A DNA stretch of 24,142 nucleotides. Origin: a virus. Both the position numbers and the translations under genes were made by a program. The notes under the pieces were generated by a model. That model made no database searches. It worked only from the letters and a program-made list of their open reading frames with translations, and was not told where the DNA came from. Below are positions 1 to 22,352 of this stretch, one piece after another; position 1 is the first letter of the stretch, and every line of letters starts with the position of its first letter. Where the stretch lies: positions 1-24,142 of IMG/VR virus record IMGVR_UViG_3300025687_007041, one strand, 5' to 3'.

Positions 1-2625
1 TTGTTCCCCATGATAAACAGACTTATATTCGTCCTTTCTGTTTAGAAGTTCTGGTTTCATGATGCTCTCACCCAAGAGATTTCCTGCTCTTGACCACATT
101 TGATAAGTGGGTGCTTCTGGGAACACATGCTTCACCGAATCGTGAACAGTTCCCATACACATCAAAGTGAAGTTTTGAATTTGAGAATGAACTTCTCCAA
201 ATCTTTCAATGACCTTGATGTATCTGTCAGTAATTGGATGTTTTGCTTTTCTTTCCTGATCTGGAAGGTGAAGAACAAATCCACCATTTGGGTTACCAGC
301 AAAAGGAACATTCTTAATTCTTTCGATGTCATCCAAACTCATTCCGATTCCAGTTGTGAAGACCGAAACAGGATGACCTTGCTCATGAGCATAAAGAAGC
401 ATGTCCGTGGTTTTTGGATTCAACCAAGGTTCCGTAAAACCAGCAAAGGTCACACGAATTTCCTTTGGCATCTTGTCAACTGCTTTCTTGAAGTTGTCAA
501 GACTCAAGAATCTTTCACCCTTATAAGACTTTTGAAGTGTTCTTTGTGGACAGAACACACAATCAACCACACAACCATTCTTCACATCAATTGAAGTTGT
601 GAATTCCATCGTTGGAGCAACAGCGTCATTCCACTTGTTCTTTGGTTGTTCTTGATTGTCAATGTAAATGTTTATCCAACCATAATATTCCACAACATCA
701 TCATTCCAAATCTGATCTGTTAGATCATTGAAATTCGAATTGTAATCAACAAAATAAACTTTATGATTACTAAAATGTTTTAAATAAGTATCTCTAAATT
801 TTTTAAACTTTTCTTTTAATTGTGGCGTACCAAAATGCCATTCACCAGAAATTTTCTTTACATTTTTCTTAATCCAATCAAAATTACCATCGGTGAACAC
901 ATTGTATTCACCACCTTCACAATCAATTTTTAAAAAATCTATTTTCTCTAATTTTTGTTCTTCGATAAGAGTTTTAAACGTTATTCCTTTACCAGAAGAT
1001 GTCTTTTTCCATAGATCATTACCCATATAATTGGGATCTAAATCATCATTATACAATCCATTAAAAATTACATCACCATCAACAGAAGATATGCCTTGGT
1101 TTAAGCAGGTAACGTTATTATAATTAGATGTATTTTTTACTAATGTTTTAAAAAGTTCTGGATGAGGTTCAAGACAAATGACCTTCTTTGGATTTTTATT
1201 TAAAATCGAATATGCAAATGGACCAACACTGGCTCCAATGTCAACAACAACATCACCATAATTTACATGGAAATGTTTTTCATAATTAATATTTTCTGAT
1301 TTAAATTCTTCTTTGATTGATTGATAATTCCAAGAATTCTGTTTCATTATTCCCCAATCAAAATCTTCATGACAATCTCTGTTGTCAATGTAAATCGTAA
1401 TTGCAGTGTAATAATCTAGGAACCAATCATCCCACAGACCCCACTTAATGTCACATTCATCAAAGGAATAAACTTCGTGATTGGGAAAGTATCTAAGATA
1501 AGTATCTCGAAAATGTTTAAATTTTTCTCTGAGTTCTGGTGTCCCTAAGTGCCACTCTCCAACAATCTTTCTGACATTGTTTTTAATCCAAGAAGCATTT
1601 TCGTCATTGAAGATATCATACTCACCACCCTCACAATCTGTTTTAAGGAAATCAATCCTCTCAATTTTGTTTTGTTCGATGAATGATTTGAAAGTGATTG
1701 TTTCAACTTCCTGAACGTTCTCATCTTCACAAGTTTCAATGAACTGCTCATTAAAAAGACCTGTGAGTTTTTGTTTTCCATCAACACTGCCAATTGCCTT
1801 GTTGATAAATCGAGCATTTTCAGATCTGACATTTTTTGTCAGAGTTTGAAACAAATCCTTATGTGGTTCGAAACAGTAAATTTTCTCAGGGTTTTTCTCT
1901 TCTAATGTGTAGGAGAACGGACCAACACTTGCTCCCACATCAAAAACAATATCTCCATCCTCAACAGAGAAAAACTTTTCATAAACTTTTTGTTCGAAAA
2001 CTTCTTTCTCAACAATTCCCTTGAACCATTCATTCTCCGCTGCTTTTCCCCAATCAAAATCTGCTTTGAGGAATTTGAGATTATTCATCACAGATTCTCT
2101 GTGAATTGAATCCATCTGCAACCAATAATTTTCTCTGAGATCTAAGAAATATTTTCTACTGTCATCACAGAGACCAGTGTGCCATGAAGACACTGCTCTT
2201 TCAAACAAGATTCCATAAATTCCAGGATAATCAACAGAAAGTGGAAGTTTTGGTAGGTCTGTGTATGCAACTTCCAATCCAATAGACGAAATCAAATAAG
2301 CATCATGATAATTTCCGTCTCTTTCATAAAATCTTGAGAGAAGAAAATAACCTTCAGGTCTCTTTGGAAGTAAAGCAACTGCTGTTTGAAGCATTCCCTT
2401 GACAGAGTTATTTCTGCACCCCTGAGAATCAAAGCAACCAGATGCTGCCAACAGACAAGCATACATCAATGTCTTATCTTCTGTCCTTTCAGCAGTTCGA
2501 ATGTAATAAGAGATTGCAGAGGCAGTCTGACCGATGGAGTGATAATGTTTTGCCAACCACAGATTTACATCAGGGTTCTCTGGGTCATCAATAAACTTGA
2601 CCAGTTGTGTGTTTAAATCAACCAT
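1..2625 (-). CDS. TPR-like / FkbM methyltransferase x2 / radical SAM fusion protein (3' end outside window)
   Basis: One minus-strand frame stays open for 875 codons from an ATG at 2625 to the window edge, so the C-terminus is missing. Residues 1-190 are helical and TPR-like. Residues about 190-415 form an FkbM-type SAM methyltransferase: motif I VFDVGASVG (227-235), FEPH (252-255) and DFLKTDCEGGE (325-335). A second copy follows at about 422-655 with VVDIGASVG (460-468), LEPH (485-488) and DFLKIDCEGGE (563-573). Residues 676-875 begin a radical SAM domain with C685, C689 and C692 in CxxxCxxC spacing and FAGFTEPWLNP (727-737) in the place of the usual GGEP strand. The start overlaps the GH130-like gene by 8 bases, implying translational coupling. 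FkbM enzymes usually O-methylate glycans or small molecules; the substrate here is unknown. The domain calls are strong, while the joint function is inference. Confidence 0.85.
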   Translation of the reverse strand, partial: MVDLNTQLVKFIDDPENPDVNLWLAKHYHSIGQTASAISYYIRTAERTEDKTLMYACLLAASGCFDSQGCRNNSVKGMLQTAVALLPKRPEGYFLLSRFYERDGNYHDAYLISSIGLEVAYTDLPKLPLSVDYPGIYGILFERAVSSWHTGLCDDSRKYFLDLRENYWLQMDSIHRESVMNNLKFLKADFDWGKAAENEWFKGIVEKEVFEQKVYEKFFSVEDGDIVFDVGASVGPFSYTLEEKNPEKIYCFEPHKDLFQTLTKNVRSENARFINKAIGSVDGKQKLTGLFNEQFIETCEDENVQEVETITFKSFIEQNKIERIDFLKTDCEGGEYDIFNDENASWIKNNVRKIVGEWHLGTPELREKFKHFRDTYLRYFPNHEVYSFDECDIKWGLWDDWFLDYYTAITIYIDNRDCHEDFDWGIMKQNSWNYQSIKEEFKSENINYEKHFHVNYGDVVVDIGASVGPFAYSILNKNPKKVICLEPHPELFKTLVKNTSNYNNVTCLNQGISSVDGDVIFNGLYNDDLDPNYMGNDLWKKTSSGKGITFKTLIEEQKLEKIDFLKIDCEGGEYNVFTDGNFDWIKKNVKKISGEWHFGTPQLKEKFKKFRDTYLKHFSNHKVYFVDYNSNFNDLTDQIWNDDVVEYYGWINIYIDNQEQPKNKWNDAVAPTMEFTTSIDVKNGCVVDCVFCPQRTLQKSYKGERFLSLDNFKKAVDKMPKEIRVTFAGFTEPWLNPKTTDMLLYAHEQGHPVSVFTTGIGMSLDDIERIKNVPFAGNPNGGFVLHLPDQERKAKHPITDRYIKVIERFGEVHSQIQNFTLMCMGTVHDSVKHVFPEAPTYQMWSRAGNLLGESIMKPELLNRKDEYKSVYHGEQ

Positions 2626-3616
2626 TGTTCAACTCCGCATTGAGAACTTGTTCTTCGATTACCGACTCTGGGAACTTTAATAAGAACGCTGCATTATCTT
2701 GAAAACCAAAAGTCAATAAGAAATCTGACCCCTGTTGGGCAAGTCCCACAGCAAACTCAACGTCTCCACCCATAAGTGAAAATGTGTCAGTCCATCTCAA
2801 CAGATTAAAATCTTTGTCCCACAAAAGGATTCTGTGTTTATAAATGGCATCTTTTCTTTGTGTCTCACTCTTGAACAAATCAACTTCGTGAGTGAAAGCG
2901 ATGTAATAATCTTTCCAAGGGATGACTTGAGAACCACCACGAGGATAACCAGACATTTCTCTTTTGTTAAAACGTTTAATCAGTTCTGATGTTCCATTTT
3001 CAGGATTTACTTTGACCAACTCTGTTGGGTTGGACCATTTTATGAAGTGATAAGGTTTGTCCAGAACTGGCATCCAGTTCTTCTCACAGTAACTATTAGG
3101 ATTATCTGGAGGTTCGATCCTAATTTGCGTGGTTTGAACGACTTTATCTTCCTGAATGTCGATCTCACAAAGTTCCATTCTTCCAATTCCTGTTGGGTCG
3201 AGGTCTCTCCTCACACCACAGGTGAACATCTTTCCTTCCCACTCAAACAAGCGAGCGTCTTCAAGTCCAACGAAGTCCCACAACTCCTTGTCTGGAAACT
3301 TGGAAGTGTCAATCTTGTTATGACGAACAATTTCATAATTTTCATCCAACTCCAAATAATGATTCCACGTCCTCAGGTGGATGTCATTCTCTGGATGAAT
3401 ATAAGTCAATGGTCCGTAAGGATGCTGAAACAACTTCTTCTCTGAGTGGTAAAACGTGTAATTTACCGCTCGAAGATTGACTAGAACCTTATCATTGTGA
3501 ATGTAAACGGATGGGTTCATCAGTCCCAATCCATTGTTTTCCTCTGCAGGAATAATCAATGGATGAATTGACCCACCATAGTAAAGACACAATTTTGAAA
3601 AATTGAAACCACTCAT
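2618..3616 (-). CDS. GH130-like five-bladed beta-propeller protein (predicted glycoside phosphorylase/hydrolase-like)
   Basis: A protein of about 332 residues. Counting from a GTG three bases upstream (3619) as residue 1, it shows GLEDARLF (118-125), EKNWMP (179-184), RGGSQVIPW (227-235), MGGDVEFAVGLA (283-294) and a late GFQDNAAFLL strand. These blade motifs resemble the GH130 mannosyl-phosphorylase-like propeller group, which acts on beta-linked mannosides or related glycans. I cannot assign the catalytic residue or prove activity, and many phage members are uncharacterised. I prefer the ATG at 3616 over the adjacent GTG; neither has a clear Shine-Dalgarno. A late-promoter-like GATAAATA lies about 25-30 bases upstream. 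Its stop codon overlaps the start of the FkbM/radical SAM fusion, suggesting the two are made together and share a glycan-related role (inference). Confidence 0.72.
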   Translation of the reverse strand: MSGFNFSKLCLYYGGSIHPLIIPAEENNGLGLMNPSVYIHNDKVLVNLRAVNYTFYHSEKKLFQHPYGPLTYIHPENDIHLRTWNHYLELDENYEIVRHNKIDTSKFPDKELWDFVGLEDARLFEWEGKMFTCGVRRDLDPTGIGRMELCEIDIQEDKVVQTTQIRIEPPDNPNSYCEKNWMPVLDKPYHFIKWSNPTELVKVNPENGTSELIKRFNKREMSGYPRGGSQVIPWKDYYIAFTHEVDLFKSETQRKDAIYKHRILLWDKDFNLLRWTDTFSLMGGDVEFAVGLAQQGSDFLLTFGFQDNAAFLLKFPESVIEEQVLNAELNNG

Positions 3617-3639
3617 CACATAATTAAAAGTTCATACTG

Positions 3640-3647
3640 TATTTATC
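3640..3647 (-). promoter_or_regulatory. Late-promoter-like GATAAATA before the GH130-like gene
   Basis: The minus strand reads GATAAATA, seven of eight bases matching the T4 late promoter TATAAATA. It overlaps the stop codon of the 305-aa fibre and lies 24-31 bases before the ATG at 3616. The T4 late box is read by gp55 sigma with gp33/gp45; that this phage uses the same system is inference. Confidence 0.5.
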
Positions 3648-4560
3648 TTGTCCTTTTCAACTCCTCAATCTCCAATTTCAGTTCTTTGACTGCTTGAACA
3701 AGGACACCAATAAGACCATTGTAAGTAACGGTCTTAGTTCCTCCCAAACTCACTTGAACCAGCTCTGGCAAAACTGTTTCCAACTCTTGAGCAATGACAC
3801 CAACAGATGATTGATCAGAATTTTTCCATTTGAATCTGACACCTCTTATTTGGTTGATAATTGATATCGCATCCTCAACGGTTTCAATGTCAGTCTTGAG
3901 GTTGATGTCTGATCCAGAGTTGACATTTCCAGTCGCAGAAACATCTCCAGTAACACTCAATGTGCTACCATCAAAAGTAAGATTTGCTTCTGCATTCAGA
4001 GTGGTTCCACTCACCGCAGTCATTACTCGGTTGTCAGAAACATTGGTAAGCGTTGCAGAACCACTTGTTCCAGTGGTTCCTTGGGTACCAGTTGTACCCT
4101 GTGTTCCAGTAATGCCTTGAATACCCTGGGTTCCCTGAGCACCAGTGATGCCCTGAATTCCTTGTGTTCCCTGAGCACCTTGAGCACCGGTGATTCCTTG
4201 AATTCCCTGAATGCCCTGAAGTCCACTGACAGTTGTGGGATCTACCCAATCAACATCTGCACCATCTGTTTTGAGAACATATCCATTAATGCCTAAACTT
4301 CCACCAGCATCCTTGATACCACTATTAAACTGTACAGCACCTGTAAATGTTGAAATTCCACTAACACTAAAATTATTGTTTACTTCTACAGTGTTATTAA
4401 ATGTTGCCGCAGTTCCTGTGATGATGTAATCGGTGGACGCGACACCAGTCAATCCAGTTCCATCACCAATAAATGATGTTCCCGTAACAACACCAACAAA
4501 AAGATCGTTGGATACGTTTATTGCTGTAACAAAACCTGCTAATACACGAGCCCTTGTCAT
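3643..4560 (-). CDS. Collagen-like tail-fibre protein with C-terminal S74 autoproteolytic chaperone
   Basis: A 305-residue fibre protein. The N-terminal 115 residues are beta-rich and include GDGTGLTGV, common in phage fibres. Residues about 112-170 are Gly-X-Y triplets dominated by Gln, Thr, Ile and Ala rather than proline. The C-terminal 89 residues are a Peptidase_S74 intramolecular chaperone: S217-D-I-N-L-K222 matches the Ser/Lys dyad spacing, followed by [15 protein letters not shown], and the end is a charged coiled coil. In characterised S74 proteins this domain trimerises the fibre and then cuts itself off just before the Ser. The gene starts 4 bases after a 57-aa fibre-head ORF in a different frame. 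The upstream codons of this frame (reading S-D-D-A before the Met) suggest the two were once one gene. RBS is weak. Confidence 0.85.
4057..4230 (-). repeat. Collagen-like Gly-X-Y coding tract in the 305-aa fibre
   Basis: A run of 9-base-periodic codons encodes [16 protein letters not shown] and [10 protein letters not shown]-type triplets. Gln and Thr replace the usual proline. Such tracts form triple-helical fibre shafts. Confidence 0.85.
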
Positions 4561-4564
4561 GGCA

Positions 4565-4738
4565 TCATCCGATGGTCAATGTTCCACTCGATGCATCATA
4601 AGTCAAGGAACCAAGGTCTCCTTTGACCTCAAGTTTAGTTGTTGGACTGTCTGTACCGATTCCAACCCTGTCATTAGCAATATCTACATAGAGATTATTG
4701 TCAGAAACAAGGTCGCCAGTTCTTCTAGTTTTACCCAT
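4565..4738 (-). CDS. 57-aa fibre head fragment, probably split from the downstream 305-aa fibre
   Basis: A short ORF starting [10 protein letters not shown] and containing [20 protein letters not shown], the N-terminal repeat typical of marine phage tail fibres (compare LGLGTDSPTQQLDVDG in the 1124-aa neighbour). An AAGG sits about 8 bases before its ATG, immediately after the 1124-aa gene. It ends [13 protein letters not shown] then TGA, and the 305-aa ORF begins four bases later in the +1 frame. Dropping one base near the stop would join ...GTLTI to [13 protein letters not shown], a natural-looking fibre sequence of roughly 364 residues. It may therefore be the 5' part of a frameshifted or recoded gene rather than an independent protein. 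Confidence 0.65.
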
Positions 4739-4751
4739 TTTGGTGCCTTAG

Positions 4752-7700
4752 TTATATCTTATTTAGGGATTGTTTAATAAGGTCAATCTCAGTTTGTTGT
4801 TCTTTAATTGCTTCAATCAGAACACCAATGAGACCATTATAAGTCACTGTCTTCAGACCTTCAGAGTTTGTTTGAACCAGTTCTGGAAGAACAGTTTCTA
4901 ACTCTTGAGCAATAACACCAATCGATGGTTGATTGGATTCCTTCCATCTAAACTTAACACCATTTAGTTGTTTTGTAAGAGAAACTGCATCTTGAAGAGT
5001 CTCAACATTTGATTTCATAGAGATATCGGAAGTTGAGTTTACGTCACCAGTGACAGTGACCCCAGAAGAAGTAGTCTCAAATTTCTTAATGTTATTGTAT
5101 CGAATATCTACTGAACCATTACCATTACAAACAATTGCATTTTCAGTTCCAGCAACTTGAATCGCAATATCGTCATCGGATTGGAGAACTAAGTCACCTG
5201 CAGTAACCTGTTTAATAATACTATTAGTTCCGTTGTGATAAATCTCCAAGTCATTACCAGTTCCAAATCTAACTTTTACGTTGTCATTGTAATCAACACC
5301 AGCCGCTCCACCTGCTGCTGTTCCTGTGATGCCCTGAGTTCCCAAGATTCCCTGAATGCCCTGGGTTCCAGTGATGCCTTGAATTCCCTGTGTGCCCTGA
5401 GTGCCTTGAATTCCCTGAATTCCTTGAGTTCCTTGAGCACCCTGAGCACCAGTAATTCCCTGAATGCCTTGAGTTCCTTGAGCACCCTGAGCACCAGTGA
5501 TGCCTTGAATTCCTTGGGTACCTTGAGCACCAGTGATGCCTTGAATTCCTTGTGTACCCTGAGTTCCAGTAATTCCTTGAATACCTTGAGCACCTGTGGC
5601 ACCATCCGCACCAAGAACACCTGCGGTTCCTTGAGTTCCAGTAATTCCTTGGATTCCCTGAGGACCTGCTGATTCGAAGTAAACAAAGTCAAGAATATCA
5701 CCCAAAGAAGCACCGGTGTCGAGAACAACGGATGTTCCATTGGACGCTGTAAATTCATCTGCTGTCAGACGAACACCATTAAGGAAGACATCAATGTTTC
5801 CTACGCTGTAAGTAACGGAAAATGTGGTTTGACCGGCAGTTGCAGTAACACTTGTCTCATTCTTGGTGTAACTGAAACCTTGGATACCTTGGATTCCCTG
5901 AGTTCCTTGAATTCCTTGAATTCCTTGAGGACCTTGAGGACCTTGAACACCTTGTGGACCAGCAGATTCAAAAGCAACAAAGTCGAGAATGTCACCGAGT
6001 GATGCTCCTGTGTCAAGAACAACTGAAGTTCCGTTGGTTGCGGTAAACTCATCCGATGTCAGACGAACACCATTTAGGAAGACATCAATGTTTCCTACGC
6101 TGTAAGTAACAGAGAATGTGGTTTGACCTGCTGTTGCTGTGACACTCGTCTCATTCTTGGTGTAACTGAAACCTTGAATGCCCTGAATGCCTTGAGTTCC
6201 AGTGGTTCCTTGTGTTCCTGTTATCCCCTGAATTCCCTGGGTTCCTTGAGCACCCTGAGCACCAGTAATTCCTTGAATACCCTGAGTTCCAGTGAGTCCC
6301 TGAATGCCCTGAATACCTTGAGTTCCTTGAGCACCCTGAGCACCAGTAATTCCTTGAATACCCTGAGTTCCAGTGAGTCCCTGAATGCCTTGAGTTCCCT
6401 GGGCACCTTGAGCACCAGTGATTCCTTGGATTCCCTGAATCCCTTGAGTACCTTGAGCACCAGTAATTCCTTGAATTCCTTGGGTTCCCTGAGCACCTTG
6501 TGCACCAGTGGTTCCTTGTGTACCAGTGATTCCTTGAATACCCTGAAGACCTATATCACCCTTTGTTCCAGTTCTTGCAAAAGTAATGATTACATCTTCT
6601 GTGTTGCTGAAGGATGTTGAACCAGAAAGATATGAAACAGAGACCTTATGATAACCAGTTGCTTCAGTGTTCGTTCCACTGATTGTAAAGATAGCAAAGT
6701 CATTAGAGTTGGTTCTGTTTGAAATTCTAACGTGACCCTTGATGGTTGAAGTCGAATCATCAATGGTTCTGAGGAATGCTTGAATGTCATTTCCGCCATC
6801 ATCCTCATCATCGATGTACATCAATGTGGCAGCTGACAAATCAGCATTGTTAAACCTTACTTTTCCTTGACCTGGGTCAGCATCTGTGGTTGTAGTGTCA
6901 AAAGTAAAGTCGAACGTGGCACCTCCAAAGTTTCCATCAACACCTTGAATGCCTTGTGTTCCAGTGGTTCCTTGTGTTCCTGTTATCCCCTGAATGCCTT
7001 GAGTTCCTTGAATGCCTTGAATTCCTTGAGTTCCCTGAGCGCCTTGAGCACCCGTAATTCCTTGAATACCCTGGGTTCCCTGAGCACCAGTGATGCCCTG
7101 AATTCCTTGAGTGCCCTGAGCACCGGTGATGCCTTGAATGCCTTGTGTTCCTTGAGCACCAGTAATTCCTTGAATGCCCTGAATTCCTTGAATTCCTTGA
7201 ATTCCTTGAATTCCTTGTGTTCCTTGAGCACCGGTGATTCCTTGAATGCCCTGAATGCCCTGTGTTCCTTGAGTTCCCTGGTCACCAGTTGTCCCCTGAG
7301 TGCCCTGATCACCAGTGATTCCTTGAATGCCCTGAAGCCCTTGAATTCCTTGAATTCCTTGAATCCCTTGTGTTCCTTGAGCACCGGTGATTCCTTGAAT
7401 TCCCTGTGTTCCTTGAGCACCTGTTATTCCTTGAGTACCCTGAGCACCGGTGATGCCTTGAATGCCTTGTGTACCTGTTGTACCCTGAGGTCCAGCGGAC
7501 TCAAAGTAAGTGATGTCAACAACATCTCCTGCTTGAGCACCAGAAGCAAGAACAACTGCTGTTCCACTGGTTGCAGTATAGTCGGCAGGAGACAGACGCA
7601 CACCATTGAGGTAAACGTCTAAGTCTGTTCCATCTGCATAAGTTGCTGCAAATGATGTTTGTCCCGCTGTTGCGATATAATTACTTTCGTCTCTTGTAAA

Positions 7701-8126
7701 ACTTGTTCCTTGGAGACCCTGAATACCTTGAGTTCCCGTTGTACCTTGAATACCTTGAACAGAAGGTCTCCATTCTACTCCACTTCCTGTTGAGGTGAGA
7801 ACAGAGGCAGCAGCACCTACTCCATTATTATTATCATAAATGGCACCACGAAATCTGGCTGCGCCATCAACATCCAATTGTTGTGTTGGGGAATCTGTAC
7901 CAAGACCAAGATTCCCTTGAGTGAAGAATGCGTTATAACTGTCTGTTCCTGCCCCAACTCTGATGGGGTTGACCGCGATGACTGTTGTCCCAACACCTAC
8001 GTTTTTGGATGCGTAGAGAAATCCATCGTAGGTGTTAAGGGCAACTTCACCCAATGGCAGTTGGTCTGGTGTTGGAATCTTTCCAGCAACAGCCGACCTC
8101 TTTAGCTTAATCTTAGGATCTGCCAT
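4752..8126 (-). CDS. Long collagen-like tail-fibre protein with S74 C-terminal chaperone
   Basis: A 1124-residue fibre. The head (1-120) has IKLKRSAVAGKIP and LPLGEVALNTYDGFLY, resembling phage-fibre N-terminal attachment domains, plus a GLGTDSPTQQLDVDG repeat. Gly-X-Gln/Thr collagen-like tracts cover about residues 122-140, 210-395, 522-654, 722-749 and 819-934. Between them lie three homologous 70-residue beta domains (about 141-210, 655-722, 750-818; core DVFLNGVRL and GTSVVLDTGASLGD) and a 120-residue insert (about 397-520; DPGQGKVRFNNA). Residues 935-1032 carry VRFGTGNDLEIYHNG, frequent in cyanophage fibres. The end is Peptidase_S74 with S1033 and K1038 and [15 protein letters not shown]. 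Such fibres trimerise, then the chaperone is shed by self-cleavage. Proline is nearly absent from the tracts. The receptor is unknown. No strong RBS is visible upstream. Confidence 0.9.
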   Translation of the reverse strand: MADPKIKLKRSAVAGKIPTPDQLPLGEVALNTYDGFLYASKNVGVGTTVIAVNPIRVGAGTDSYNAFFTQGNLGLGTDSPTQQLDVDGAARFRGAIYDNNNGVGAAASVLTSTGSGVEWRPSVQGIQGTTGTQGIQGLQGTSFTRDESNYIATAGQTSFAATYADGTDLDVYLNGVRLSPADYTATSGTAVVLASGAQAGDVVDITYFESAGPQGTTGTQGIQGITGAQGTQGITGAQGTQGIQGITGAQGTQGIQGIQGIQGLQGIQGITGDQGTQGTTGDQGTQGTQGIQGIQGITGAQGTQGIQGIQGIQGIQGIQGITGAQGTQGIQGITGAQGTQGIQGITGAQGTQGIQGITGAQGAQGTQGIQGIQGTQGIQGITGTQGTTGTQGIQGVDGNFGGATFDFTFDTTTTDADPGQGKVRFNNADLSAATLMYIDDEDDGGNDIQAFLRTIDDSTSTIKGHVRISNRTNSNDFAIFTISGTNTEATGYHKVSVSYLSGSTSFSNTEDVIITFARTGTKGDIGLQGIQGITGTQGTTGAQGAQGTQGIQGITGAQGTQGIQGIQGITGAQGAQGTQGIQGLTGTQGIQGITGAQGAQGTQGIQGIQGLTGTQGIQGITGAQGAQGTQGIQGITGTQGTTGTQGIQGIQGFSYTKNETSVTATAGQTTFSVTYSVGNIDVFLNGVRLTSDEFTATNGTSVVLDTGASLGDILDFVAFESAGPQGVQGPQGPQGIQGIQGTQGIQGIQGFSYTKNETSVTATAGQTTFSVTYSVGNIDVFLNGVRLTADEFTASNGTSVVLDTGASLGDILDFVYFESAGPQGIQGITGTQGTAGVLGADGATGAQGIQGITGTQGTQGIQGITGAQGTQGIQGITGAQGAQGTQGIQGITGAQGAQGTQGIQGIQGTQGTQGIQGITGTQGIQGILGTQGITGTAAGGAAGVDYNDNVKVRFGTGNDLEIYHNGTNSIIKQVTAGDLVLQSDDDIAIQVAGTENAIVCNGNGSVDIRYNNIKKFETTSSGVTVTGDVNSTSDISMKSNVETLQDAVSLTKQLNGVKFRWKESNQPSIGVIAQELETVLPELVQTNSEGLKTVTYNGLIGVLIEAIKEQQTEIDLIKQSLNKI
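4760..4766 (-). promoter_or_regulatory. Late-promoter-like CTAAATA before the 57-aa fibre head
   Basis: The minus strand reads CTAAATA inside the last codons of the 1124-aa fibre gene, 22-28 bases before the ATG at 4738. Sequence and spacing match the other junction motifs. Because it lies in coding sequence it could be coincidental. Confidence 0.4.
5325..5670 (-). repeat. C-terminal collagen-like tract of the 1124-aa fibre
   Basis: Codons for G-[IT]-[QT], G-A-Q and G-T-Q triplets repeat over about 115 residues before the linker that leads to the S74 domain. A GADGATG stretch is the only place where Asp enters the triplets. Confidence 0.85.
6165..6560 (-). repeat. Central collagen-like tract of the 1124-aa fibre
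   Basis: About 130 residues of Gly-X-Y with two near-identical blocks reading [16 protein letters not shown] followed by LTGTQ, which suggests recent unit duplication. Confidence 0.85.
6940..7495 (-). repeat. Longest collagen-like tract of the 1124-aa fibre
   Basis: About 185 residues of uninterrupted Gly-X-Y. It includes a perfect fourfold 9-base repeat (gaattcctt on the plus strand) at 7181-7216 encoding repeated GIQ triplets. Confidence 0.88.
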
Positions 8127-14933: not shown

Positions 14934-17900
14934 TCAAGCGAACGAGATTACACGGAGATTTTTAATCTGTGGAACAACTGAAGAATTTGTTGTCGTTCCG
15001 ATCAGTTTGATTCTAAAGACAGAGAACGGATTAAGATTATTTGCCGTGAAGGTGTATTCCTTGAAGAATTTTGGTGCAGGTTCGTATAGAGCAGTGTCTT
15101 CTTTGGGAACCAATCTGTCTGGAAGACCATCGCTGTTGGTTGTGCTGATAATATTACCAGCAGCATCCAAGTTGTTGTAACCAGGGAATGGAACAAAGAG
15201 GGTCTCGTCAACAGGCAGATCCTGGTTCAGTGAGAAGAATGCTCTGATGTCAGATGAATCATGAACATAAGCATCCAACTGAATTCTCAGGGAAGTTGCT
15301 GGATTCTCAAGAACAATTGGTTTAGTGATGTAGAAGAATCTGTTTGGATCATCTTGGAAAGTGTTGACTCTGAAATCCGTTGCATAATTGGAAACAGGTG
15401 CGTTTGTTCTGTTATTGACAAACACGACTGCTGCGTTGTCAAGGTCAACAACTGGTGAGAGTTTAGAGTCCGATGTCTGGAAGTTGATGTTCATGGAGAA
15501 CGACTTATTTCCAGGGAACAGTCCACTTGGTGAGAGATAGGTGGATTCGTTAATTCCAGAAACAACCATTCTTGGTTCAGTAAAGTAATTATCTGTGAAA
15601 AGTGCAACTTCTTGATAACCCTTATCAACATAACCTGCTTCAGATCCATCAACACTGGTTCCGCTGATTGTTCTGACGTTCGCACTCACAGTGGTTCCAG
15701 TTGGACTCATGGTTGTAATTCTTGGAACAATCAAAGAATAAGGAATGTTGTAAGTTCCTTTTGCATTTGTTCCAGCATTTGCTTCAGTGTTGTTGAAGTA
15801 GAGTGCTGGAAGAGTTCCAGATCCAGTTCTGTCAGTTCCATTCTCATCCATCTGAATGTTGATGTGATAAGAATCCAAGGTAATTGGGCGAGTAATGGTA
15901 TCACTCACGTCTGCCAGATTGTGTGTGGTGTTAATTCTTCTTAGAGAAACACCGTTCAATTCATACTTAAGAACCAAATCATTTGCCGAGTGTGAAGCAA
16001 TGACAGTGTTGTCAACACCTCTGGTAATTCCAGTTAGGGTTGCTCCGTCAAATCCAGTGTAAGAAATGATTTCTTTGCCGATCTTGATGTAACCAGGGTT
16101 GGTGGCTCCAACAGCAACATTTTCAAACGAGGTGTAATTAGTTGTGGAACCAATCGAAATTGCTCCAGTTGCTGTGTTAGTATAAACCTCAGCAAGAGTT
16201 GTTGCTGGAACGTCAGTTGTAACATCTTTCAGTGTTACACGGTTGACCTCAGAATACATTCCATGATTTCTCTGGAAAATCCTCATGTGAGTTCCATCAT
16301 GATTGACTCTGATCGGAGTCTGAGGAACAACACCTCCACCAGAAGAATAATTCAGTTCAGTTGTGATTCCCAGTGAATTTTGGTAGAACAGTTTGTCAGT
16401 TGCTCCGGTTGCAAAGTTACCTTGAACATCATTAAGAATCAGTTCGTTGTTGCCATAAATCTCACCAACAGTCAGTCTCAACCCTGTACCAAGATTATTA
16501 TTACCGATCGAGATTGGTGTAAGAACATCACCAAGAGAATATCCCTTACCACCACCTGCGGTAGAAACAGTCGCTGCAATTGCCACACCATTATTGATCG
16601 CAATCTCAGCGGTTCCGTCAATTCCATTACCAGTTACGCTGGTGAGAGCAACACCAGAGAAGACGTAATAACCAGAAGAAGGAGTGTAACCAACGCCAAT
16701 GTTGGTCAGAGTCAGATCACCAGTCATTGAACCAGCGAATCCTGTCAGAGTTCCTTGTGCTCCGGTTGAATTTTGGATGACAGTGTTGCCAACAACCAAA
16801 CCAGTGTCTTGAACGGTTGTTCCAATTCCAATGCTAAGGTTTCTGGATTCCATTGTGATGGAATTCTTAGCGATTCCTTCCAGAGTCTGTGGAAGACTTG
16901 GATTATAAAGTGTGAATGAACCTGTGCTTGCGAAGTCCGCTCTGTACATCGTGAACTTCAGGTCCTCATATTGACTTGGAGTCCAAACGGTGGCATTCTG
17001 TGACTTGAACAGTGAACCAAGAAGTGGTTGAACTGAAACAAGAACTTGTCCTTGCTCTTGTCCAAGTGTCGTCACCTCAACTTCACCCAGTCTTGAAATC
17101 CAAACTCTGTATTCCGTTGAGGATGAACCCATGATGAATGCATATTCAGTGTTGGCTTCCAGGTAAACTGGAGCATCAAACACCCAAGAAGTTGCAACTG
17201 TTCCGTCTTCAGACAGTGCAATTTGATCTGGTTCCAGAGTTACTTCCGAGAAAGGAAGAATTCTTTCGTTGGGAGTTCCCAAAGTGGTTTCACGAACCTG
17301 ACACCAGACGGGAATTGTTTCATCCTTGGTGTGGAAGAAGACATCAACTTTAGTGATGTAAATTCCAGTGTCCTCGTCAACCATAAAGGTTTGACCCAGA
17401 GGGTCCCAATATCTAGTTGTGGAGGTGGTAACCGTTCTTGCCTCTTCGACTTCTCTGAACTCAACGTCGGCGTTTCTAACAGACAGAGTGGTTTCTTGAA
17501 TGTTGTCGATGCTTCCTTGTGAGTAGAACGTCTGTTCTCCTGCTGTTGTTGCAACACCTTGAACCAAACTGTTAGTTGAACTGCTGGTGAGTTTGAAAAC
17601 AGATGTTCCCGTTTCAAATACAGGGTTTGTTTCATTAGATTGGTCAGGAACTCTGTAAGAACCAATGATGGTTCCCAGTCTGTCGGTGATCAGTCTTACG
17701 TTAGAAACTCTTGCTTGTGCTCCACTGGATTGTCCAACCAGAATCATTCCAGTTGCAGCATAACCAAAGAATTCAGGATTTGCTTCAGATTGGAGACTGA
17801 AAGTGTCAACGTTCAGAATTGTTGAAGTTTCTGAATAAGTTGAAGGGATGGTTGCTTCTCTGTTATAGGGGTTTGAATCAAAGATGTCAGAGGGGTTATT

Positions 17901-20900
17901 ATAAGGACCATACTTGTGATTTGCTTGAGAAACACGGAATGTGAGAGCAGCAACTGCAGATTCTGTGACCTCTTGACTCTGAACTGTCGAAGGCATTGTG
18001 CCGATTACAGTTTCACTTACTTCAAATGTTCCATTAATCATCTCGATTTCGAGAAGTTTACTGCAGCAGAACTTGTTGACATCAACAGCATCATAGAAAC
18101 CATAAACCTGAGTGAATGGTTTAAAACTCTTACCAGTAAACTCAATGTTTCTGGTTCTCATAAAGTTGATTTGCTCTCTGCTGACAATTCTGTCTCCAAG
18201 AGAAAGTTCATCCAGTCTTTCAGTGAGAATGGTTTGAACACCCTGTCTTTCTTGCTCACGAGTTGTTCTGGTTGTTTGACCAAGGCTACTTCCAGTCCAC
18301 CATGCGCCGCCAGTGGTTGTGGTAGAACTTGTGGTTACCCAATCTTCCCAAACAGTTGGACCAAGACCAATTCTGTTTCCATCTTCGTCCTCTGTAATTT
18401 CAACGCCCTGTTGGAGTGCAGTGGAAACAAAATCACCTTCGATTGTTCCAAGATTCTCTGTGTCGAGTCTGTTTGTGTCAACCCAAACATCAACGTTTGG
18501 TTCCAAAGAGAGATTTCCAGTCCAGAACTGAACAAGGAAAGGAGTTACACTTTCCGATCTTGTTGCATATGGGTTTTTGACAAACTCAACTTCTGTATAA
18601 TCCAGAGTCATTATCTGACCAGATCTTCTGACTCCAGTTCCTTGAACAGAAGCAAATCTTTCGTCTTCATTGGGATCTGTCGTTGTTCCAATTCCACTGA
18701 TCGCACTTGTTGCCAACTGCATCGAAAGAGCAGTTGTGTAGTGAGATGGTCTCAGAATTCCTCTTGCCTTATCGATACTATTTCTGATTCCGATCTCTGG
18801 ATCTTGAGGAAGTAGTTCAGTGAAGTTATCGACGAACACACCAGACTTAAATCTATTCAGACCATTGGCATCTGGAATGAATGAGTTAACAGTTGCAGTT
18901 TCGAGAGAAGTCAGGGAAGTGTAATACTCAAGATTGGAAATTCTTCTTTCGAGTCTTGAGATATCTGACATCTGATATCTCTTATGCTCAACAAAATCAA
19001 CTCGAACATCATCTGCCGAATAAACATAAGCAGGAAGAGCAATGTTTGCAATATTGAGAGTTCCACTTAAGTTTTCTGGAAGTTGTGGGGTGTCAGCGGG
19101 TGCACCCTGTACAACGGTGACAACTCCTTCTTTGTTGATGCAAACTCTGTCTGCTCTTGAGAGGTAGTAATCATAACTCAGAGAAACAGACTCATCAGAG
19201 GCAAGAACAAACTTAGAACTGTGTTGTCCTGTTGCTCCACCGTCAAAGTCTCTTCCATCAAATTCAAATGGAGACTTTGCTCCAGAGGAGACCGTGTAAG
19301 TTTTTACTCTTGGTCTTGCGTCAATCAGATCAGTGACTCTTGTACCATCAACCTTAGGTATCTCTGATGTATAGTTAAACTGATCATATGAGTTTACTGT
19401 AGTAATGTCTCCAGTGTCCGAAGAACTGTATTCTGCCTTGGAGAAGTAAACTTTGATCTTTCTTGTGGGTGCTTGGGCATTTGCCTTTCTTGTGATTCTT
19501 CCGTAATCATAGTAAGAAAGTTTTTGACCATTACCCGTATTGAACTGGTTGGTGATGTTTTTCGAAGGAACAACAACATTAGTTGCAATTGCACTCACGC
19601 CAGACTGAGAGAAATTAATAACTTCTCCGGATTCAAAAACAACGTTGTTCAGATAAGCAAAATTGACCGCAGTGTCACTCTTTCTGACAAGATAAATTGC
19701 TTTTGCGCCACTAATAGCACCAGTAATTGTTTCACCAACGATGAGATCATTTGTGTTGGCACTTGGACCATCCATGGAAGCGGTGGTCATGTAAGGTGAT
19801 TCGGGATCAGAAGTGTCCTTGGATTCATAAATTCCATGAACTTTCAGAACATCAGGAACATTCAAACAAATTACAGAGTCTTGAACTCTGGTTCCAAATG
19901 GGAAAGAACCATAAGTCAAACCATCATTCAGAGTGGTTCCACCAATGCCAGAAGCAGAGATGGACGATTTATCAATCAGAACATTGTTTGAAATAACCTT
20001 TGTCTTAACTTTGTTGGTTACGTTACCCTTGCGGAGGGTTGCAATCAGGATTGTTCCAGAATCTGTGGTTGCACTCAAACCATTGAACTGGATTGAGGTT
20101 GAACCGTTGGTTAGAGAGATTTTATCTGCCGTTAGTGCTTCTGTGGATCCGTCAGAACGCATCAGAATGTATCTTTCTTCATCGAATGGAAGGAAAACTT
20201 CATTGGGATCAGCATTGATAACAGGAGTTGAATTAGCAGCGATTGAAGTTGTAAATTGCTTTCTAATAATCAGATTTGCTGAAGTGAGATCAACGGACTC
20301 GATGTTGTTTTTGGGGAAGATGCTGTAAAGAGTTTCATTAGATGCTCTGTTTCCAGATCCGTTAGTGTCTTGAATTTTGGTTTGTACAACCTTGAATTGC
20401 GTTCCAGTTTCTTGAGAAGATGGAAGTGCACCATTATTGATGCCGGCAACCGATTCGACTGCTTCAATAACCAGACTGCTGGTGTTTACGGTTGTAACTC
20501 GTGCATAAGATACGTCTGTAAGAGTATCTCTTTGGTAAGAGACGATGTTCCCTGTGGTGACAATCCCTGGGAAAACAGCACCAGCAACTGTAACGGTGGA
20601 AACACCGCCGCTTGCGCCAGTGATCGTTGCGGATCCATATTCATAGAAATCCTCCTGTACAACGTCCGCACTAAAGGTTGATGCGGACCCCACAATTCCG
20701 AAAACTGACTTAATGTCAGAATTTTCCCAATTTCTGATTCCTGTGACATATCTGCTGTCATTTGCGACTCCATTGAAAAGAAGTCTCTCTCCATTGAAGA
20801 AATCACCCTGAACATCGTAAGCAGTAAAAGCAGTTCCAGCAGAAACACTGTATCTGAGGAATGCGCTCGCTCCACTTGACTCACCTTTGATGTAAGTTGG

Positions 20901-22352
20901 AGTGGAAAGTGTAACTGCGGTGTTTACAGTGAAATCAGAGTAAGTTTGAACGTCCCAAAGCGACAAATCCCACTCATTTGCGGTTGGAACAGCAGAATTA
21001 TAAGATCCAGACTCCAAAGCGAAGTCATAAATGCGAGCAACACCGATTTCTTTTCCTGGTCTTGCCGCTTGATCAGATCCAACCCTTTCATCTCTCAAAC
21101 TAATCGTGTTTGAAGTGTTAAATCCAATTGTTGCCGAACCATAAACGTTATTCAGCGTAAAAGTGGGCCCAAAACCGAAATTGACCGCTTGGTTTTCAAG
21201 AGTTTTGGTTGTTCTTGGTTTGGGAACGTCAATAAGTGTTGGGGAGATGATGTCAACCTCATATCCCTTCACATATGCCTTACCTGGAGACACTTTGTAG
21301 ACCAAAAGGTCTTCACTTGGGACATTTCCATCAACTGTGGTTTGCCCAGGGTTGTAAATTCCTCTATTTCCTTGACCATTGTTCAAATTCTCTCTAACAG
21401 AGGTCAAGAAGTTCTTTACATAATAATTTCCTGATTCGTCAAAGGTTCTGCGGGCAAATTCATCACCAATAAAGTTATATTGGGTGTTTTGAGTAAGAGA
21501 TCTAAGATTTCCGTCTTGAACTTCTGCCAATTGGACGAAATTCTGATCATCATAATCGTCCAGTGGTTTTGCAAACAGGGTTGCTGTGATTTTGAGACGA
21601 TCAGCGCCTGGTGCAGTGTAATTATTAAATCCTTTCGCGTTATCGTTGAGTGATGGGTCTGTTTCAGAAGAAACAATCTCTTCCAGAACGTTCAGACCGA
21701 TTCTGACACTCGGATTATTAGAATATTGGCTTAGAAGGAGGATTTGGCTGGAAACATCAACAAAATATCCTCTCAGGAAGAAAACACCCTCATTCAGAGT
21801 GAATCCAGATCCAACAATTGCAGCATTTTGTGGAACTGTGCTTGCAAATCCACCACCTGCAGAGATAAATGTGGTTGCGTAAGTAATTGCACTCTCTGTC
21901 AGGAGGACTTCTCCATCCAGAAAAGTTGCAGTAGCAGCATCAGTGCTGCTAGAATTCTGATAATTCAAATAAAGAGTGTAATTTCCCTTCTCGGACTCTT
22001 CATTTGTGATATAAGTGACTACTTTTGCAGTAACTCCAGACGTTGCACCCGTAATTGTCTGCCCAACAATCTTGTCAAGGTAAAGAGAAACGGGAACACC
22101 AAGATATTCAGACTGAATCTGAATACCATTGAAACTTCTGGTGTAAAGTGTGCCTCCAGGAATGATTGCAGTTCCCTCTTTGAAGAGGTGATTGCCCACA
22201 TCTTCGACCTGATTCTGGAGAATCGACTGTAGAGTCGTTAATTCTCGTGCCTGAACAGGATATCCTGGTTTAAACAGGACCTTGTAGTAGTTGCTCTGAG
22301 GAGTAAAATCGTCATAATATGGAGCAACGTTGAGATTAGTTTCCTGTGGCAT
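14934..22352 (-). CDS. Giant DUF4815-type virion structural protein (baseplate region)
   Basis: A 2472-residue protein, by far the largest here. The N-terminus (VAPYYDDFTPQSNYYKVLF then GYPVQARELTTLQSILQNQV and EGTAIIPGG) is the DUF4815 signature of marine T4-like phage structural proteins. Residues about 1130-1145 carry ISRLERRISNLEYYTSLTSL, a coiled segment of this family, and about 1645-1660 carry TTRYWDPLGQTFMVDED. Beta repeats recur: TGxxSGAxA modules near 91-114, 486-501, 869-891, 1534-1556 and 1849-1871, GVGYTPSSG, and IGKEIISYTG...RGVDNT near 2073-2133. It lies between gp8 and gp13, replacing T4 genes 9 to 12/wac; a wedge or fibre-connector role is likely by position (inference). No strong RBS; the gp8 stop is 6 bases upstream. 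Confidence 0.85.
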   Translation of the reverse strand: MPQETNLNVAPYYDDFTPQSNYYKVLFKPGYPVQARELTTLQSILQNQVEDVGNHLFKEGTAIIPGGTLYTRSFNGIQIQSEYLGVPVSLYLDKIVGQTITGATSGVTAKVVTYITNEESEKGNYTLYLNYQNSSSTDAATATFLDGEVLLTESAITYATTFISAGGGFASTVPQNAAIVGSGFTLNEGVFFLRGYFVDVSSQILLLSQYSNNPSVRIGLNVLEEIVSSETDPSLNDNAKGFNNYTAPGADRLKITATLFAKPLDDYDDQNFVQLAEVQDGNLRSLTQNTQYNFIGDEFARRTFDESGNYYVKNFLTSVRENLNNGQGNRGIYNPGQTTVDGNVPSEDLLVYKVSPGKAYVKGYEVDIISPTLIDVPKPRTTKTLENQAVNFGFGPTFTLNNVYGSATIGFNTSNTISLRDERVGSDQAARPGKEIGVARIYDFALESGSYNSAVPTANEWDLSLWDVQTYSDFTVNTAVTLSTPTYIKGESSGASAFLRYSVSAGTAFTAYDVQGDFFNGERLLFNGVANDSRYVTGIRNWENSDIKSVFGIVGSASTFSADVVQEDFYEYGSATITGASGGVSTVTVAGAVFPGIVTTGNIVSYQRDTLTDVSYARVTTVNTSSLVIEAVESVAGINNGALPSSQETGTQFKVVQTKIQDTNGSGNRASNETLYSIFPKNNIESVDLTSANLIIRKQFTTSIAANSTPVINADPNEVFLPFDEERYILMRSDGSTEALTADKISLTNGSTSIQFNGLSATTDSGTILIATLRKGNVTNKVKTKVISNNVLIDKSSISASGIGGTTLNDGLTYGSFPFGTRVQDSVICLNVPDVLKVHGIYESKDTSDPESPYMTTASMDGPSANTNDLIVGETITGAISGAKAIYLVRKSDTAVNFAYLNNVVFESGEVINFSQSGVSAIATNVVVPSKNITNQFNTGNGQKLSYYDYGRITRKANAQAPTRKIKVYFSKAEYSSSDTGDITTVNSYDQFNYTSEIPKVDGTRVTDLIDARPRVKTYTVSSGAKSPFEFDGRDFDGGATGQHSSKFVLASDESVSLSYDYYLSRADRVCINKEGVVTVVQGAPADTPQLPENLSGTLNIANIALPAYVYSADDVRVDFVEHKRYQMSDISRLERRISNLEYYTSLTSLETATVNSFIPDANGLNRFKSGVFVDNFTELLPQDPEIGIRNSIDKARGILRPSHYTTALSMQLATSAISGIGTTTDPNEDERFASVQGTGVRRSGQIMTLDYTEVEFVKNPYATRSESVTPFLVQFWTGNLSLEPNVDVWVDTNRLDTENLGTIEGDFVSTALQQGVEITEDEDGNRIGLGPTVWEDWVTTSSTTTTGGAWWTGSSLGQTTRTTREQERQGVQTILTERLDELSLGDRIVSREQINFMRTRNIEFTGKSFKPFTQVYGFYDAVDVNKFCCSKLLEIEMINGTFEVSETVIGTMPSTVQSQEVTESAVAALTFRVSQANHKYGPYNNPSDIFDSNPYNREATIPSTYSETSTILNVDTFSLQSEANPEFFGYAATGMILVGQSSGAQARVSNVRLITDRLGTIIGSYRVPDQSNETNPVFETGTSVFKLTSSSTNSLVQGVATTAGEQTFYSQGSIDNIQETTLSVRNADVEFREVEEARTVTTSTTRYWDPLGQTFMVDEDTGIYITKVDVFFHTKDETIPVWCQVRETTLGTPNERILPFSEVTLEPDQIALSEDGTVATSWVFDAPVYLEANTEYAFIMGSSSTEYRVWISRLGEVEVTTLGQEQGQVLVSVQPLLGSLFKSQNATVWTPSQYEDLKFTMYRADFASTGSFTLYNPSLPQTLEGIAKNSITMESRNLSIGIGTTVQDTGLVVGNTVIQNSTGAQGTLTGFAGSMTGDLTLTNIGVGYTPSSGYYVFSGVALTSVTGNGIDGTAEIAINNGVAIAATVSTAGGGKGYSLGDVLTPISIGNNNLGTGLRLTVGEIYGNNELILNDVQGNFATGATDKLFYQNSLGITTELNYSSGGGVVPQTPIRVNHDGTHMRIFQRNHGMYSEVNRVTLKDVTTDVPATTLAEVYTNTATGAISIGSTTNYTSFENVAVGATNPGYIKIGKEIISYTGFDGATLTGITRGVDNTVIASHSANDLVLKYELNGVSLRRINTTHNLADVSDTITRPITLDSYHINIQMDENGTDRTGSGTLPALYFNNTEANAGTNAKGTYNIPYSLIVPRITTMSPTGTTVSANVRTISGTSVDGSEAGYVDKGYQEVALFTDNYFTEPRMVVSGINESTYLSPSGLFPGNKSFSMNINFQTSDSKLSPVVDLDNAAVVFVNNRTNAPVSNYATDFRVNTFQDDPNRFFYITKPIVLENPATSLRIQLDAYVHDSSDIRAFFSLNQDLPVDETLFVPFPGYNNLDAAGNIISTTNSDGLPDRLVPKEDTALYEPAPKFFKEYTFTANNLNPFSVFRIKLIGTTTNSSVVPQIKNLRVISFA

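Follow-up and report, generated by a model that had tools for sequence, protein, structure and literature searches.

An open reading frame at the left end of an IMG/VR phage record is probably one combinatorial product of a late-expressed phage cassette for glycan tailoring, a reading to which we assign a probability of roughly 0.6. The record, IMGVR_UViG_3300025687_007041, was analysed over its entire 24,142 bases (hereafter, the window), and there is no sequence beyond its left end. The frame (1..2625, minus strand) begins with an ATG at 2625 and remains open for 875 codons up to the record's left end, with about 64 C-terminal residues (the 3' end) lying beyond it. A TPR-like module, two FkbM methyltransferase cores and a radical SAM (rSAM) domain follow one another in this single frame, as the first-pass annotation had proposed and as Pfam, AlphaFold and two related contigs confirm. 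Multi-domain enzymes of this kind make up a family in T4-like aquatic phages that is widespread and has apparently not been described: 207 viral IMG/VR stretches gave a match to the rSAM module, and homologues of the TPR module occur in at least 568. The surprise rests more on this combinatorial family than on the window's single chain.

The two related contigs come from other metagenomes and were found by a search of viral contigs. Both L002 (939 aa, 97% identical) and L003 (945 aa, 84% identical) carry the same domain order, uninterrupted and with an intact C-terminus. A leftward extension of the frame had been suggested as a check; the record stops there, and these contigs complete the chain with a SPASM/Twitch-like C-terminus. 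A frame that runs off the end of a record could be suspected of being an artefact, created by a frameshift or by an assembly join between domains. This explanation was rejected and is extremely unlikely, because two other contigs share the order. The tandem FkbM-FkbM arrangement recurs in a further locus (L122), and the modules appear to be under purifying selection, with dN/dS of about 0.02–0.29, mostly below 0.16, where synonymous divergence could be estimated. Together, low dN/dS and near-invariant catalytic residues suggest that the modules are active enzymes.

The TPR-like module comprises residues 1–189 (2059..2625, minus strand) and has counterparts in homologous N-terminal modules. Its Pfam matches are sub-threshold in the window (TPR_17, 2e-4) and just above the cut-off in some relatives (P0008, P0009 and L046). 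In the AlphaFold (AF2) model, the N-terminus is all-helical, with pLDDT mostly 85–97, and Foldseek matches it to solved TPR proteins (MamA, TMt 0.72; CTPR, TMt 0.78; also OGT and GmaR), so the predicted fold is a TPR-type helical repeat. The model was run on the L002 protein with 31 sequences. Its mean pLDDT is 81 but its pTM is 0.40, and the individual domains are therefore credible while the packing between them is not. The channelled processing suggested in the first-pass annotation accordingly draws no support from this full-length model.

FkbM module 1 spans residues 190–415 (1381..2058, minus strand), and module 2, an inserted cassette, spans residues 422–657 (655..1362, minus strand). 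Pfam recognises two FkbM stretches in the frame (PF05050, 6.4e-28), and both copies keep the motifs D[VI]GAS, EPH, DCEGGEY and GEWH. From Pfam/TIGRFAM matches above cut-off (PF05050/TIGR01444) and these SAM-binding core motifs, both can be assigned to the FkbM methyltransferase family, although the window departs from the family at large: its two copies stand side by side within a TPR/rSAM chain. Their models match SAM methyltransferases in Foldseek, and a PDB sequence search with FkbM returned generic SAM methyltransferases only. Module 1 corresponds to the one FkbM module present in L004 and in L005.

The rSAM module occupies residues 671–875 (1..615, minus strand) and matches Radical_SAM (PF04055, 2.4e-08). 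Its CxxxCxxC [4Fe-4S]/SAM motif, read from the translation, lies at residues 685–692 (550..573, minus strand). The above-cut-off match and the motif, present in 96/96 sequences, place the module in the radical SAM superfamily as far as sequence can tell. Across 95–96 distinct rSAM modules the motif is invariant, as are six C-terminal cysteines (C878, C880, C898, C899, C930 and C933 in L002 numbering). The relatives' C-terminus appears to be a SPASM/Twitch-type auxiliary Fe-S domain, and the window ends before this part. SPASM (PF13186) scores 6.9e-6 in P0008, lies above cut-off in the L007 (DSL-LC02) and L040 proteins, and falls just below it in L002. The best PDB sequence match of the rSAM profile is BtrN (E 0.0012, weak), and DesII appears among the weak fold matches. 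BtrN is a radical SAM Twitch dehydrogenase of a cyclitol in butirosin biosynthesis. Its auxiliary-cluster cysteines (C-x19-C ... C-x2-C) resemble those of the phage module, whereas the sequences are remote and the phage module has extra conserved cysteines; the match is a hint about rSAM chemistry, not proof.

Upstream of the chain, and overlapping it by 8 nt, lies a gene for a mannoside phosphorylase/mannosyltransferase-like protein (2618..3616, minus strand). The earlier description of this neighbour as GH130-like holds for the fold, because the best PDB matches of its AF2 model (pLDDT 88.9) are almost exclusively GH130/GT108 proteins (Foldseek E down to 4e-9, TM ~0.5–0.6), including mannoside phosphorylases and Leishmania GDP-Man mannosyltransferases. 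It does not extend to sequence, where neither a GH130 match in Pfam nor a PDB sequence match was found. The beta-propeller is shared with GH130 mannoside phosphorylases and the GT108 Leishmania MPT, but identity in structural alignments is only ~10–15%, and the protein is best regarded, from its model, as GH130-fold and not as a GH130 family member by sequence. It contains an invariant GxEDxR segment.

Downstream of the chain in L002, and overlapping it by 4 nt, is a DUF6445 gene (4114–4713). An HxD...H...R signature is kept in 81–83 of 83 DUF6445 sequences and corresponds to that of Fe(II)/2OG oxygenases, with a putative HxD...H iron triad and 2OG-binding Arg. Other phages have DUF6445 fused to TPR; a PDB sequence search with the protein gave no match. 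The L002 protein also matches PHROG 1644, ‘minor coat protein’, a label that fits poorly with the Fe/2OG-type signature. Past this gene, L002 continues with structural genes and the large terminase.

In the window, the genes upstream of the cassette described here are on the same strand. Directly upstream is a collagen-like tail fibre/baseplate protein with a C-terminal chaperone (3643..4560, minus strand; PHROG baseplate wedge initiator/tail fibre), followed by a collagen-like (GXX, Thr/Gln-rich) tail fibre of 1124 aa (4752..8126, minus strand; PHROG tail fibre/collagen-like). This second fibre has long GTQGIQ/GTQGTT repeats and is a candidate O-glycosylation acceptor. Homologues of gp16, gp15, gp14, gp13 and gp8 come next, and the gp8 homologue has its nearest relatives in Prochlorococcus and Synechococcus myoviruses; the phage can be classed as T4-like and cyanophage-type. 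Between the gp13 and gp8 homologues is a 2472-aa protein (14934–22352) with a full-length match to phrog_358 (function unknown). The cassette is a variable glycan/tail-fibre island in the late structural region, between tail fibres/gp16 and gp17.

A T4-type late promoter-like element, GATAAATA (3640..3647, minus strand), is located ~24 nt upstream of the GH130-fold gene start and matches NATAAATA, the cyanomyovirus late promoter (PMC2984593). The motif ATAAATA/CTAAATA was present within 100 nt upstream in 30/91 non-redundant leaders, against 7.8±2.5 in 200 dinucleotide shuffles (maximum 15), and many of these matches sit 18–35 nt ahead of the start codon. These motifs suggest that the cassette is expressed late in infection, and the earlier placement in a T4-like late region is supported.

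The wider family was surveyed in ~235 IMG/VR loci using HMMs for seven modules: GH130-fold, TPR, two FkbM types, Methyltransf_24-type, rSAM and DUF6445. About 20 fused orders were found over ~150 complete multi-module ORFs (the raw 24 orders and 156 ORFs include a few split matches of one domain). Among the best 80 loci per search, with redundant contigs included, so that counts are not frequencies, the ORFs included GH130-FkbM-rSAM (28), TPR-FkbM' (26), TPR-DUF6445 (22), TPR-FkbM-rSAM (14), TPR-FkbM'-FkbM-rSAM (8), TPR-rSAM (7) and GH130-rSAM (5). Further fusions include GH130-TPR, GH130-DUF6445 and FkbM-DUF6445, and L122 combines Methyltransf_24-TPR-FkbM'-FkbM-FkbM with a separate rSAM gene. 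Glycosyltransferases also occur in TPR chains, with GT2/GT7C, GT25 and WavE in L158, GT17 plus Methyltransf_24 in L132, and a GT25-like domain in L119, and the relatives' chains include a match to a CmcI-like rhamnosyl O-methyltransferase.

Consequently, the view that such a chain is unusual in a T4-like phage finds no support in its original form, since the related orders are common. What survives of it, after the search for the same domain order in viromes, is the rarity of the exact tandem: among the loci examined, the window's order is complete in only two other contigs, L002 and L003. At the level of architecture class, these chains are common in environmental T4-like phages, and the exact FkbM-FkbM form is rare. 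One FkbM fewer is carried by L004, L005, L006 and DSL-LC02, and in a split form (L199) the FkbM2-type module still stands directly before the rSAM gene.

The chain was built by cassette recombination near domain borders, as indicated by uneven identities between modules and by the behaviour of FkbM2 as a block. Between the window and L002, DNA identity is 99.6–99.8% in FkbM1, FkbM2 and rSAM and 82.8% in TPR, with dS of 0–0.02 and 0.89, respectively. Similarly, L004 and L006 share 93% in TPR, 75% in FkbM and 94% in rSAM. L003 and L004 are 93% identical in FkbM1 and 92% in rSAM, and FkbM2 is absent from L004 as one clean block. In a quick tree with SH-aLRT support only, FkbM2 groups with the FkbM2-type modules of L122 and L141, apart from module 1 (SH-aLRT 100), and so looks recruited. 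A recent in-place duplication is not favoured, as FkbM2 is 57–62% identical to the FkbM2-type modules of L122, L141 and L199 and 47–49% identical to FkbM1. These phages thus gain, lose and swap modules, exchanging them near domain borders.

Two named Synechococcus phages carry relatives of the cassette. DSL-LC02 (L007, OR032571, WJZ48256-48258) has GH130-like, TPR-FkbM-rSAM-SPASM and DUF6445-type genes in the same order, set between tail-fibre genes; it differs in having one FkbM instead of two, and in carrying the cassette on the strand opposite the tail fibres. Its third gene (L007 10151–10744) is annotated ‘FkbM family methyltransferase’, a label we reject, as the product is 80% identical to a DUF6445/2OG-Fe-type protein. 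A search of the DSL-LC02 genome paper (PMC10611076) found no mention of FkbM. In S-SCSM2R (L008, PQ898602, XQU50107-50108), a chain headed by TPR likewise follows a GH130-like gene, but that chain is TPR-FkbM'-DUF6445, without rSAM. The ‘CcmH/NrfG’ annotation of this protein (L008 5998–7863) is misleading.

FkbM, rSAM, TPR and GH130 are all known families, and rSAM/glycan cassettes in such islands have already been published for pelagimyophages (PMC7029224). The pelagimyophage/cyanomyophage host recognition cluster described in that paper resembles the present island in its hypervariable tail-fibre region, its glycosyltransferases and its reported radical SAM cassettes. It differs in location, lying between VrlC and gp14, whereas the window's cassette lies between gp16 and gp17. 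A search of the paper found no mention of FkbM or multi-domain chains, and a full-text search of the open-access literature for FkbM, cyanophage and radical SAM returned no relevant paper.

Glycan tailoring of some kind is the likely function. This reading follows from the GH130 fold, the glycosyltransferase fusions, the genes of the L003 cluster, the GT2, GT9, GT25 and 2OG oxygenase genes found as phage neighbours of cassettes, and the surroundings of cellular rSAM homologues, which adjoin GT2, GT1/GT4, GDP-mannose dehydratase, epimerase and FkbM genes. The L003 cluster (3573–7431) has genes like those for a sulfotransferase, a GT9-type glycosyltransferase and a CmcH/NodU-type carbamoyltransferase, and L004 (6672–10483) has the same genes by sequence; both appear to be larger versions of the island. 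The glycan context first proposed from the GH130-like neighbour is therefore borne out more broadly. The modules probably act on one product, because many module pairs occur fused, and the gene overlaps in the window and in L002 were also counted as support for a single system.

In the proposed scheme, the TPR module would recruit the acceptor or partner enzymes, and the GH130-fold enzyme would make or break mannoside-type linkages. The two FkbM modules, with their conserved catalytic motifs, may methylate hydroxyls at two positions. The rSAM module, with a cysteine pattern like that of the cyclitol dehydrogenase BtrN, could perform a radical step on the sugar, such as oxidation or epimerisation, and the separate DUF6445 Fe(II)/2OG-type enzyme might hydroxylate the same product. 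The gain, loss and swapping of modules would vary the final glycan.

Where this glycan resides is a matter of weaker preference. Both the late-promoter motifs and the presence of tail-fibre genes next to the cassette somewhat favour the virion, and virion glycosylation is known in other phages, from mycobacteriophage work cited in PMC12691614. The collagen-like tail fibres of the phage itself are tentatively, and only weakly, ranked first as the site of the glycan. Counting against this, only 62/147 cassette loci have a collagen/S74 gene on the stretch examined, many of the contigs being short. The cassette may alternatively modify host O-antigen or another surface glycan, for example blocking competing phages or re-adsorption of progeny, which is possible though rather unlikely. 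For this genomic region, the published interpretation leans to modification of the host O-chain, and the glycosyltransferases of the host recognition cluster are so interpreted, in PMC7029224; the polysaccharide neighbourhoods of cellular rSAM homologues point the same way. Against the host surface stand the late-promoter motif, itself compatible with both targets, and the close same-strand packing with tail-fibre genes. Exclusion functions, moreover, are usually expressed early.

It is quite improbable that the enzymes act directly on protein, so that the collagen-like tail fibre itself undergoes FkbM methylation, SPASM radical chemistry and Fe/2OG hydroxylation without any sugar, in the manner of RiPP maturation or collagen hydroxylation. 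GXX-repeat fibres do adjoin the cassette in the window, the SPASM/Twitch-type cysteines are present, and peptides are the substrates of many SPASM enzymes whose function is known. The TPR modules of OGT and GmaR, both among the fold matches, bind protein partners. Methylation of peptide backbones is also within the reach of FkbM enzymes, as with the N-methyltransferase EreM of a proteusin pathway (PMC9259500). However, the GH130-fold and glycosyltransferase fusions in the same chains would then have no role.

If glycan tailoring is correct, the family would bring radical SAM chemistry into the modification of glycans by phages. A more ambitious and distinctly unlikely extension is a combinatorial assembly line, in which linker recombination shuffles TPR, GH130-fold, methyltransferase, rSAM and Fe/2OG modules to yield a lineage-specific methylated, oxidised tail-fibre glycan; the tail would then have a ‘serotype’ comparable to bacterial O-antigen variation. 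Family members are natural domain-swap experiments, and S-SCSM2R has a named laboratory host, Synechococcus WH7803, so whether the island's sugar genes target the virion or the host surface is directly testable.

A scan of genome contigs found no cellular protein with the chain. Two bacterial MAG records carry the rSAM module and are probably phage islands or binning/assembly chimeras. In L185 (7953–11701; CP070705.1, a ‘WOR-3’ MAG chromosome) the module is 54% identical, and an 847-aa ORF nearby was read as a T4-like DNA polymerase. In L163 (RGSV01000150.1, ‘Acidimicrobiia’) it is 64% identical, and the fragment looks like the rSAM of phage locus L199. A stand-alone rSAM/SPASM relative, ~42% identical, lies near head genes in Methanomicrobiales virus vir524 (L009 4022–4762, BK063669), a virus assigned to methanogens.
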